From the NCBI GenBank assembly GCA_951812895.1, contig OX638333.1, forward strand, positions 3,328,001-3,392,000: 64,000 nt of DNA, given 5' to 3'. The notes under the pieces are model-generated. The model did no database searches. It worked only from the letters and a program-made list of their open reading frames with translations, and was not told the DNA's origin. The position numbers and the translations under genes were made by a program. Source of the DNA: an uncultured Roseovarius sp. (GTDB lineage Bacteria; Pseudomonadota; Alphaproteobacteria; Rhodobacterales; Rhodobacteraceae). This document shows, piece by piece, positions 11,984 to 41,226 of this stretch. Numbering within the stretch: the first letter of the stretch is position 1; every line of letters begins with the position of its first letter.

Positions 11984-13065
11984 CGGACCTGTCTGCGATC
12001 CGTGCAGAGGCCGCAAGGCTTCGCGCGGAGTTCGAAGCGGCGGGGGCAGAACCGGTGGAGACATCGGTGCTGCAACCGGCTGAGGTTCTGCTTGATCTCT
12101 ATGGCGAGGATATTCGCGCGCGGGCCTATGTGACGTCAGATGCGCTGCGCGGGGAACAGATGCTGCGGCCGGATTTTACGGTTCCGGTGGTTCAGATGCA
12201 TATGGAGCATGGGGCAGAGCCGGCTTGTTATACCTATTCGGGCAAGGTTTTCCGGCGACAGGAAGATGATCCGGCGCGGGCCAGTGAGTATTTTCAAGCC
12301 GGATTCGAAATTTTTGACAGGCAAAACCCTGCCGCGGCAGACGCAAGGGTATTTTCTCTGTTTTACAACATGCTATCTCATATGTCTTTACGCGCTTCGA
12401 CGGGCGATATTGGTATTCTGATGGCTGCGGTTGAAGGCTTGAAAACCACTGATCGGCGCAAGGTAGCGCTGCGCCGGCATATCTGGCGGCCAAAGCGGTT
12501 TCGGGCATTGATTGACCGGTTTTCGGGACGGACACCAGTGCCGGAGAGTCGGGCTGAATTGTTGCAGATTGATGATCCGCTTGCGTGCGCCGGACCGATG
12601 ATCGGCCTGCGGAATTGGGATGAAATATCACACCGTATCAGTGTATTGAGAGAGGATGCTAAAGCGAACCCGATCTCATCCGAAGAGGTGAGGCTGATCG
12701 ATTCTGTTTTATCGGTACAGGGAAGTTCGGATCGGTCACTGGAGGCGCTGCGTGATATTGCAGTCGTGATGCCATCGATTTCACCTGCTGTGGACCGTTT
12801 GGCAACGCGGCTGGAGGCGATAAGTGCGAGCGGAATTGACCTCTCAAAGCTGGATTTTGAGGCCAGCTACGGACGTACGCAGATGGAATACTATGACGGC
12901 TTTGTCTTTGGTTTCTATGCAGAAAATCGATCAGACCTGCCGGCTGTGGCGTCCGGTGGCCGGTATGATGCACTGACCCGGCAGCTGGGTCGTGGAAAAG
13001 AGATACCTGCGGTGGGTGGGGTGATACGTCCAGGGTTGGTTGTGGCCCTGGGAGGTGCGCGATGA
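11980..13065 (+). CDS. hisZ: ATP phosphoribosyltransferase regulatory subunit
   Basis: A 361-residue HisZ, a catalytically dead HisS paralogue that partners short-form HisG in the first step of histidine synthesis and confers feedback control. It keeps class II synthetase-like segments such as [25 protein letters not shown] and the late YDGFVFGFY and [14 protein letters not shown]. It overlaps hisS (ATGA) and hisG (ATGA), showing a three-gene operon. The presence of hisZ predicts the short HisG that indeed follows. Confidence 0.93.
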
Positions 13066-13757
13066 GCCTTAAAATCGGAGTGCCGTCCAAAGGGCGGTTG
13101 ATGGAAAAAACATTCGAATGGTTTGGCGAGCGCGGTGTTGAGCTGGGCCGGTCGGGATCGGATCGTGAATATTCGGGATTTGTTCAAGGCGTTGAAAACG
13201 TAGAGCTGATCCTGCTGTCTGCCGGAGAAATTCCGCGTGAGCTGGCCGCTGGTCGCGTTCATCTTGGGGTGACTGGCACAGATTTGGTGCGCGAAAAACT
13301 GGGGCGTTGGGAAACTCAAGTTGAGGAAATAGCCGAACTTCAGTTCGGATTTGCTGATTTGGTATTGGCTGTACCGGCGGCCTGGGTGGATGTGGGGACG
13401 TTGGACGATCTGGATGCGGTATCTGCCGCATTTCGGCTAAATCACGGATTTCGTTTAAGAATCGCAACGAAATATCACCGTCTGGTACGGGATTTCCTGC
13501 GTGAAAACGGGGTCGCGGATTATCAGCTTGTAGATAGTCAGGGCGCCACTGAAGGGACAGTGAAAAATGAAACTGCTGAGGCGATTGCTGATATCACCTC
13601 GACCGGGGATACATTGCGCGCCAACCATTTGAAAACATTGGAAGATGGATTGGTTTTGCGCAGCCAGGCGACACTGTTCCGATGCCTGAGTACGCCAATG
13701 GATCTGGATGAAAAAACCGCCTGGGTCAAATTGCAGGAAATGCTCGCACTGGGGTGA
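13062..13757 (+). CDS. hisG: ATP phosphoribosyltransferase catalytic subunit, short form
   Basis: A 231-residue HisG condensing ATP and PRPP in the committed step of histidine synthesis. It begins LKIGVPSKGRLMEKTFEWF and has the PRPP-binding region EGTVKNETAEAIADITSTGDTL (the loop is at about 166-187; the core is DITSTGDTL). It lacks the C-terminal regulatory domain of long HisG, consistent with dependence on HisZ. It is the last gene of hisS-hisZ-hisG. An unusual operator-like element begins 16 bases after its stop. Confidence 0.95.
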   Translation: MSLKIGVPSKGRLMEKTFEWFGERGVELGRSGSDREYSGFVQGVENVELILLSAGEIPRELAAGRVHLGVTGTDLVREKLGRWETQVEEIAELQFGFADLVLAVPAAWVDVGTLDDLDAVSAAFRLNHGFRLRIATKYHRLVRDFLRENGVADYQLVDSQGATEGTVKNETAEAIADITSTGDTLRANHLKTLEDGLVLRSQATLFRCLSTPMDLDEKTAWVKLQEMLALG

Positions 13758-13773
13758 GCTGCAGTGTAAACAA

Positions 13774-13857
13774 TTTGTACAATTTGTACAATTTGCATGT
13801 CCGATTTGTACAATGATCGGGGCGATTGACGGAATTTGGGTGCATTGTGTACTCACC
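13774..13857 (+). promoter_or_regulatory. Repeated regulatory element, copy 1 (triple TTTGTACAA)
   Basis: Three TTTGTACAA palindromes: 13774-13782, directly abutting 13783-13791, then 13805-13813, whose start is 22 bases after the second. GATCGG follows at 13815-13820 and GAATTTGGGTGCAT at 13832-13845. The same blocks in the same order and spacing occur at 41046-41129 in an unrelated place. By hand count the two copies agree at 57 of 84 positions, nearly all within the blocks. Two-turn spacing of palindromes suggests a dimeric repressor or activator site. The regulator is unknown; TTGTACAA resembles some GntR-family sites but that is only a guess. Confidence 0.6.
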
Positions 13858-13987
13858 ACGCATTGTCGCGGCGCTGGATATTCTGAATTTCAAAAATGAT
13901 GAGCTGTTGTTTGGTTCACTGGAGAACGGCGGTCCGATTGGTGATATTCCGCACCTAGACCAGCAAATACGGAATAGTGGGGCTTGA
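13847..13987 (+). CDS. Possible 46-residue small protein
   Basis: An open frame starting at GTG directly after the repeated regulatory element and ending at TGA 13985-13987. It encodes 46 residues beginning YSPRIVAALDILNFKNDELL after the start and ending QQIRNSGA. The amino acid mix looks protein-like, and codons such as GCG GCG CTG GAT match neighbours. There is no ribosome binding site, so translation would need a leaderless or nearly leaderless mRNA. I do not recognise it. It may equally be a degenerate remnant of a larger gene. Confidence 0.3.
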   Translation: MYSPRIVAALDILNFKNDELLFGSLENGGPIGDIPHLDQQIRNSGA

Positions 13988-40799: not shown

Positions 40800-41045
40800 A
40801 TGGTTCAGGTGAAAATCTGGGGCTCGCTCGCCGCGGCCACTGACGATCAGACAACAGTAGAGATCAAGGCGGAAACGCTGCGGGAACTTCTGGATGGTCT
40901 GGGCAAGAAATACCCTGCGATTCAGCCACAACTGGATCGCGGGGTATCAGTTGCCATTGATGGCTGGATCTACAACGATAGCTGGTTCACCCCGATAAAG
41001 CCGGACAGCGAGGTGGTTCTTCTGGCACGCCTGAAGGGCGGGTGA
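40800..41045 (+). CDS. MoaD/ThiS-like ubiquitin-fold protein
   Basis: An 81-residue beta-grasp protein beginning VQVKIWGSLAAAT and ending LARLKGG. The C-terminal Gly-Gly is the residue pair that is adenylated and thiocarboxylated in sulfur carriers such as MoaD and ThiS. It lies 16 bases after the large subunit, so it is part of the hydroxylase operon and may supply sulfur for cofactor maturation. No cognate E1-like activating enzyme is in the window. Its stop overlaps the start of the second copy of the TTTGTACAA element. Confidence 0.85.
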   Translation: MVQVKIWGSLAAATDDQTTVEIKAETLRELLDGLGKKYPAIQPQLDRGVSVAIDGWIYNDSWFTPIKPDSEVVLLARLKGG

Positions 41046-41129
41046 ATTGTACCATTTGTACAAATGGTACACGCCTTTTGTACAAGGATCGGCCTGTCAG
41101 AGAGAATTTGTGTGCATCATGAACACAAA
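41046..41129 (+). promoter_or_regulatory. Repeated regulatory element, copy 2
   Basis: Sites ATTGTACCA (41046-41054, degenerate), TTTGTACAA (41055-41063) and TTTGTACAA (41077-41085), then GATCGG (41087-41092) and GAATTTGTGTGCAT (41104-41117), in the same order and spacing as copy 1 at 13774-13857. The middle site is the centre of a perfect 24-base palindrome at 41048-41071 (arms TGTACCATTTGT and ACAAATGGTACA). It lies between convergent genes, where no promoter would be expected, which suggests it drives a small RNA or tiny gene. Confidence 0.6.
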
Positions 41130-41193
41130 GCCCCGATCGCGCCCTGTTTTGCGCAGTCTGGGCAGGGGTATTTCTAGCAAGAAAGAAGCCTGA
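41119..41193 (+). CDS. Possible 24-residue small ORF
   Basis: An ATG at the position that aligns exactly with the GTG start after copy 1 of the repeated element. It encodes 24 residues, basic at the N-terminal side (NTKPRSRPVLRSLGRG) and ending KKEA. Its last codons run into the left arm of a long hairpin. There is no ribosome binding site. It could be a leader or small peptide, or just chance in a small RNA. Confidence 0.2.
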   Translation: MNTKPRSRPVLRSLGRGISSKKEA

Positions 41194-41226
41194 AAAGCCC
41201 TATTTCTTTCTTGCTAAAAAATACCC
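41166..41226. terminator. Long inverted repeat between convergent genes
   Basis: Arms of about 22 bases: GGGTATTT then TAGCAAGAAAGAA on the left, TTCTTTCTTGCTA then AAATACCC on the right, with a 16-base loop and one small bulge. It lies between the hydroxylase operon and the convergent EF-G-like gene, so a two-way terminator is the simplest reading, although neither strand shows a T-run directly after the stem. Confidence 0.5.

Follow-up and report, generated by a model that had tools for sequence, protein, structure and literature searches.

The two matching stretches of the window analysed here belong to a larger family of non-coding elements of about 86 bp in the marine genus Roseovarius, and the copies of this family that lie near stop codons mark the ends of transcription units. 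The window is the whole stretch of 64,000 nucleotides under study (C1:3328001-3392000), taken from the single contig (4,544,618 bases) of an uncultured Roseovarius sp., referred to below as the source genome (G000). Both stretches had been noticed, and correctly placed, in an initial annotation of this DNA, which suggested that they may be promoters serving leaderless small genes or small RNAs. We propose that the element works at gene ends as DNA and, from its position only, that a putative factor reading its boxes would stop or insulate transcription there; this reading is tentative, with a probability of about 0.4.

The two copies in the window share one layout, and all of their parts lie on the plus strand. 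Copy 1 (13772-13858; model match G000:3341772-3341860) begins 15 nt past the stop codon of hisG, which encodes ATP phosphoribosyltransferase (13062-13757, PF01634). As read from the sequence, its first, second and fourth boxes (13774-13782, 13783-13791 and 13805-13813) are each TTTGTACAA, and sequence and alignment place a degenerate third box (TTTGCATGT) at 13792-13800. These are followed by a GATCGG block that is mostly invariant in the copy alignment (13815-13820), by an 11-bp spacer whose length is fixed and whose sequence is poorly conserved, as judged from the alignment and from identity by segment (13821-13831), and by a 3' inverted repeat with the left arm GAATTTGGGTGCAT and a degraded right arm, recognised from sequence and covariation (13832-13858). 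Copy 2 (41045-41131; model match G000:3369044-3369132) begins at the stop codon of a gene that is ThiS-like by Pfam (40800-41045), and a convergent EF-G-like gene lies ahead of it. Its boxes 1 to 3 read directly as ATTGTACCA, TTTGTACAA and ATGGTACAC (41046-41072) and form one dyad, in which boxes 1 and 3 carry compensating, complementary changes; its sequence continues with box 4, TTTGTACAA, and GATCGG (41077-41092) and with the 3' inverted repeat GAATTTGTGTGCAT-C-ATGAACACAAAG (41104-41130). Three exact TTTGTACAA had been described for each copy, which is right for copy 1 (13774, 13783 and 13805), but copy 2 has two only (41055 and 41077). Aligned without gaps on their last TTTGTACAA (13805 vs 41077), the copies agree at 53/77 bases. 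The inverted repeat, which extends to about 13858 and 41130 and has the consensus GAATTTGTGTGCAT-N-ATGCACACAAATC, had been overlooked.

Further copies are numerous. A sequence-only covariance model built from 17 source-genome copies (R1, cut-off E<=0.01) matched the source genome 63 times, and copies were also found in other Roseovarius genomes. Parts of the pattern that had been proposed for searching recur well beyond chance: TTTGTACAA-N-GATCGG occurs 14 times in the source genome vs 0 for the reversed control, and GATCGG-N11-GAATTTGNGTGCAT, allowing 3 mismatches at most, occurs 18 times vs 0, although at least three of the weakest of these 18 (L033, L034 and L038) are unlike the family in context. 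For detailed comparison, 46 of the 63 source-genome matches and 59 of the 71 R1 matches of R. pacificus (DSM 29589, listed as G034 in the genome-by-genome counts) were used, those omitted being weaker matches; the 46 source-genome copies were excised and compared without gaps, and 39 R. pacificus copies entered the fold and covariation analyses. Three boxes at 9-bp steps are followed by a short linker, a fourth box that runs into GATCGG, the 11-bp spacer and the inverted repeat; all four boxes are of the GTAC type, and their spacing is fixed. By segment, the source-genome copies have mean identities of 0.36 (spacer), 0.62 (boxes 1-3), 0.72 (box 4 with GATCGG), and 0.48 and 0.51 (the two arms of the tail), and the corresponding values among R. 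pacificus copies are 0.43, 0.83, 0.88, and 0.69 and 0.77. The earlier view that conserved blocks around a fixed-length unconserved spacer look like a set of sites rather than one recent duplication is thus borne out, with many copies and spacer identities of 0.36/0.43 against 0.62-0.88 in the boxes. Copying of whole units alone would homogenise the spacer too; selection by a box-reading factor would account for the contrast.

The placement of the copies is the basis of the proposed function. First, a same-strand gene stop lies within -32 to +35 nt of the element's 5' end in 23/46 source-genome and 36/59 R. pacificus copies, and no such stop was detected in the other 23 of each set; the genes were called from open frames, partly with GC by codon position and with no trained gene finder, so counts of near stops vary by a few between analyses. 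In 13 of the 59 R. pacificus copies, the stop of a convergent gene also lies at most 33 nt from the other end, and the element nearly fills the gap. The fit can be very close: counted by eye, 17 R. pacificus copies have a single base between the end of the stop codon and the boxes, and 16 of these read TGAG|TTT. The element seems not to supply the T before GAG, since 18/23 R. pacificus copies without a near stop show GAG, GCG or GGG before the boxes. Second, near-stop copies avoid operon interiors. Among those with a known downstream neighbour, a codirectional start follows within 60 bp in 0/22 cases in the source genome and 3/26 in R. pacificus, vs 15/43 gene ends of the window (Fisher p 0.001, both for the source genome alone and for the two together). 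An excess of convergent neighbours was not significant (26/48 vs 16/43, p 0.14). The upstream genes include those for HisG, RNase J, LpxK, MltG/YceG, ArgG, RuvB and enolase, and many are housekeeping genes; as had been noted for the two window copies, they are unrelated, and the 25 source-genome genes that were scanned, out of 46, share no functional theme.

This placement also speaks against the promoter reading of the initial annotation, which was drawn from a start codon in register in both copies and a 46-codon frame opened in one of them. A start codon at the shared alignment position does recur, as ATG, GTG or TTG in 32/46 source-genome copies, but it is the ATG of the right arm of a palindrome (CAT-N-ATG), and the GTG at 13847 falls inside the 3' inverted repeat of copy 1. 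Frames opened at this position have chance lengths across the 46 source-genome and 59 R. pacificus copies, with medians of 23 codons vs 20 for arbitrary positions in the former and 38 vs 31 in the latter. The 46-codon frame of copy 1 has no Pfam match, and the box architecture persists in species that have a GTAC tail in place of CAT-N-ATG. A promoter of small genes or small RNAs, rejected on the chance frame lengths and the placement at gene ends, is therefore the least probable reading considered and hardly to be expected, although a transcript could still start at an element.

Alternatively, the element could act as RNA within the 3' untranslated region, where it would form a structured 3' end or bind a protein or a small RNA. 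The shared strand of the near-stop copies and their upstream genes fits this proposal, as does folding: single strands fold somewhat better than shuffled sequences (mean z -2.1 over 46 source-genome and 39 R. pacificus copies; z below -2 in 22/46 and 18/39). Among 8341 windows of the source-genome copies, the 3' dyad also ranks first as a covarying helix (z 7.3-8.8); in R. pacificus alone, other windows outrank it, on very few varying copies. The mismatches within the dyads bear on whether DNA or RNA is conserved. At the 3' dyad, G-U and A-C occur about equally (41:40 in the source genome, 40:55 in R. pacificus), and the lack of a G-U excess favours a DNA dyad over an RNA stem there. G-U exceeds A-C at the 5' dyad of the source-genome copies (39:22, p 0.04), and the ratios between their boxes (39:22, 27:23, 31:22 and 27:18) show at most a slight bias, while those of R. 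pacificus (106:5, 84:0, 111:1 and 47:14) are strongly biased. We put the R. pacificus bias down to shared descent of near-identical copies, which would produce it as transcript structure would, and did not count it; this is a choice against the RNA reading, for which the excess would otherwise speak. As read directly, the tail pair is GTGC..GCAC in the source genome, GTCC..GGAC in R. pacificus and GTAC..GTAC in G007, G030 and G014, and each of these three states is self-complementary, the exception being G021 with GTCC..GTAC; this too suits an RNA stem. On the other hand, the possible pairings vary between species, and Rfam 15 gave 0 matches at gathering score within the window. Overall, the evidence leans towards a DNA dyad and is no proof, and we regard the RNA element as unlikely.

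Like intrinsic terminators, the element lies right behind stop codons and sometimes between convergent genes; the difference is that few source-genome near-stop copies (3/30) hold a G+C hairpin and a T run. In a simple scan, canonical terminators accompanied 7/30 source-genome near-stop copies vs 10/27 control gene ends, which is not clearly rarer and counts against a gene-end function of the element. In R. pacificus, 25/35 pass a loose terminator scan, 24 of them inside the element, mostly by way of box hairpins before TTTTGTAC.

The family is nearly confined to Roseovarius, as far as the sensitivity of the searches allows us to judge. R1 found 71 copies in G034, 39 in G028, 38 in G007, 29 in G030, 24 in G021, 23 in G003, 4 in G014 and 1 each in G019 and G026, and none in 22/32 genomes of the genus. 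A second model (R2), trained on 23 copies from six genomes and used to score at most 133 candidates in each of 33 genomes, found at least 131 in G007, at least 124 in G030, 82 in G034, 53 in G021, 47 in the source genome, 37 in G028, 24 in G014, 12 in G003, 5 each in G005 and G013, 2 in G024 and 1 each in G019 and G023, and none in 19/33; for both models a zero means that nothing was detected, as more diverged dialects could escape them. One weak R2 match was obtained in G190, a genome of another genus, and in a survey of 198 family genomes with stricter filters and at most 22 candidates of each genome scored, matches occurred in the source genome and G190 only. A relaxed pattern run over 84,980 species genomes, possibly not including the source genome, returned 30 stretches, all from Roseovarius (24 in R. 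pacificus DSM 29589, 4 in a MAG and 2 in Roseovarius sp. MMSF_3281). Plasmids and phages gave no blastn match to a typed consensus, and viral contigs gave no match to one search pattern. In the literature on Rhodobacteraceae, alphaproteobacterial and Roseovarius repeats and transcript ends that our search covered, which leaves most subscription journals outside, we found no description of the element, and TTTGTACAA as a text string led to unrelated papers only among the matches listed.

Within the genus, the boxes are spelled by species. They read TTTGTACAA in the source genome and TTTCGTACG in R. pacificus, and the GTAC boxes hold the same positions across species. The exact string TTTGTACAANGATCNG has 17 matches in the source genome and 0 in 35 congeners, largely because the boxes are spelled differently; it occurs once each in 2 of 393 other genomes of the family sample and once each in 3 genomes from other families within the class. 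The architecture varies as well: G007, G030 and G014 have two extra GTAC boxes in the tail, a recognisable third box is missing in G003 and in a subtype of G007 and G030, and the argG-site copies of G007 and G030 have a C-rich stretch in its place. Such dialects could be explained by drift of the putative factor. They also recall the DNA uptake sequence dialects of Neisseriaceae, a species-specific spelling of a dispersed signal (PMC3630211). By analogy, the elements might serve as sites for chromosome organisation or DNA uptake, read by a receptor that differs in dialect from lineage to lineage, and their dialect-like spelling in each species and their dispersal at gene ends, some of them between convergent genes, would agree with this. 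Uptake sequences are likewise placed at gene ends and number about a thousand or more copies. The Roseovarius element is a far longer, composite unit, and genomes rich in it have tens to about 130 copies, far below such numbers; we consider sites of this kind very unlikely.

Positions are shared between species. In 17 of the 46 source-genome copies, an element stands behind the orthologous gene in R. pacificus, where 59/71 copies were examined, vs 0.6 expected from independent draws of sites from an assumed 4300 gene ends; orthology was taken from tblastx similarity at equal displacement from the element. Two copies at a shared site resemble each other no more than randomly shuffled pairs do (permutation p 0.83, spacer; 0.93, whole element). 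At the hisG 3' end, compared by eye in 30 Roseovarius genomes, the element is present in the source genome, G034 and G021; in G028 it lies further on and in the opposite orientation, and several congeners have ordinary hairpin-and-T terminators at the same place. In a tree of HisG and the protein upstream of it, element presence needs at least 3 changes on well-supported branches of this small tree. Because many branches are weak, one row (G031) is very long, and 92/500 shuffles cluster the element label at least as strongly, we take from this tree only that the distribution is patchy.

The argG site was compared in 29 genomes, the 30th of the set (G032) being left out. The element follows argG in 8 of them (source genome, G030, G034, G007, G021, G003, G013 and G014), and these carriers all belong to the 10 genomes that have 5 or more R2 matches; presence was judged by eye in all genomes, the models also match the copies of the source genome, R. 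pacificus, G021 and G014, and the G013 copy is degenerate with a low score. No element was recognised by eye in the other 19/29. The same convergent neighbour of argG is kept in 19 genomes. Where the element fills the gap, the two stop codons are 89 bp (G034), 89 bp (G021) and 90 bp (G013) apart, and in the source genome, G003 and G014, where the distances are 654, 544 and 711 bp, it still directly follows argG. Without the element, the distance is 6 bp in G004, 4 bp in G022 and -5 bp in G010, G001 and G020, and 82-1078 bp in eight other genomes. The element is thus a discrete unit that is present or absent whole, with empty sites, and it is not needed at argG, since three empty genomes have genes overlapping by 5 bp and two keep only 4-6 bp; this counts against the proposed gene-end function. 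The best-scoring other copy for the argG-site element is in the same genome in 6/7 testable genomes and, for G030, in its sister G007; the pool for this comparison was uneven (58 copies from R. pacificus, 45 from the source genome and 3-6 per other genome), and G013 had no other copies.

Whole-unit presence or absence at argG, with 89-90 bp in three genomes against -5 to 6 bp in five, is what a miniature non-autonomous mobile element of the MITE or REP type would leave behind. Such an element would have inverted ends and boxes that bind its enzyme, gene ends would tolerate its insertion, and the species spellings would be separate bursts with replacement of old copies. Mobility is likewise suggested by end inverted repeats, recognised by eye in G007, G030 and G014 and weak in source-genome copies, by the patchy distribution with its at least 3 changes, and by the closer likeness of copies in R. 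pacificus than in the source genome (whole-element mean identity 0.75 vs 0.55). In addition, some copies share homology far past 86 bp, over about 240-510 bp, which suggests copying of longer units. In R. pacificus, about 390-510 bp around the element are common to three copies (C23:272295, C23:325372 and C15:942859) and 82-94% identical, as if longer units had been duplicated. At L061 in G007 and at L078 and L086 in G030, the matched copy is preceded upstream by partial elements arranged end to end. Several observations weigh against mobility. No target duplication was seen by eye at argG, the one site inspected, and the site is filled in 8 genomes with boxes specific to each genome. The boxes stay constant while the spacers vary. 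No transposase was found among the scanned genes beside source-genome elements, most downstream genes being outside the scan, and a Y1 (RAYT-type) transposase is absent in 7 of the 8 genomes with at least 4 R1 matches. We regard the mobile element as a serious possibility and nearly as likely as a gene-end factor.

REP and BIME elements, with their RAYT transposases, are short, non-coding, palindromic and dispersed between genes, and form lineage-specific families. The Roseovarius element is also short, non-coding, palindromic, intergenic and lineage-specific, but it has 86 bp and four to six GTAC boxes, and about half of its copies lie directly behind stops in one orientation. Membership in the REP/RAYT system was rejected, as PF01797 was not found, at the sensitivity of Pfam, in the source genome, G034, G007, G030, G021, G003 or G014; the domain occurs in 6/31 genomes, and a single match in G028 only just reaches the cut-off. 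Correia/NEMIS elements are small MITE-like repeats. BOX and RUP are likewise small MITE-like repeats (PMC3049150). The Roseovarius element resembles Correia/NEMIS, RUP and BOX in its size, in the inverted ends of some species and in its whole-unit presence or absence, and differs from them in that its conserved boxes are separated by a spacer whose length is constant but whose sequence is not, and in that the same sites are filled across species. At argG, no target duplication was visible by eye, and we found no autonomous partner.

Other repeats occur beside the elements. A second dispersed motif, GGGTATTTNNNGCAAGAAAGAAGC, lies 34 bp past the element match of copy 2 (41166-41189, plus strand), and together with an inverse near copy it makes up a long inverted repeat, read directly at 41166-41226, between the element and the end of the convergent EF-G-like gene. 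This motif has 36 copies in the source genome at up to 2 mismatches vs 0 for the reversed control; 9 of the 36 share the strand of one of 48 element positions and lie 31-123 bp downstream of it, and none is within 250 bp upstream of these positions. Four of them are 34 bp from the end of a model match and a fifth is 34 bp from an estimated end, two of the 48 element positions being estimated, one of which is behind a 34-bp distance. GGGTATTTNNNGCAAGAAAGAAGC also occurs in inverted pairs about 40 bp apart, and G008 has 36 copies of the motif with no more than 1 mismatch, most of them with the spelling ACAAG. Downstream of elements L002, L026 and L036 there is a third repeat, which forms a hairpin around GGTGGGGTGAAACCCCACCCTACG or sequences close to it.

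In conclusion, we propose that the boxes would be DNA sites for a dedicated putative factor, probably dimeric and cooperative, which would occupy the element and halt or insulate transcription leaving the gene, acting on both strands where genes converge. As the specificity of the factor drifts in a lineage, its sites would drift along; lineages without it would lose the elements, and the elements may additionally have spread as units. The more specific form of this proposal, that transcript ends are marked and enforced by a dedicated DNA-binding factor and not by an RNA hairpin, on both strands where genes converge, and that this factor co-evolves with several dozen to more than 100 sites into species dialects, is doubtful at present. 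Protein-roadblock terminators of the Reb1 or TTF-I type act as DNA-bound blocks at gene ends, and by analogy the proposed factor on the Roseovarius element would be such a block; to the best of our knowledge, no general protein-roadblock termination system is known in bacteria. Short dispersed elements of bacteria are usually taken for selfish debris, yet gene ends that are filled alike in several species while the spelling changes genome-wide ask for a reader. The argG junction, filled or empty among congeners, offers a natural experiment on what such an element does at the end of a gene.
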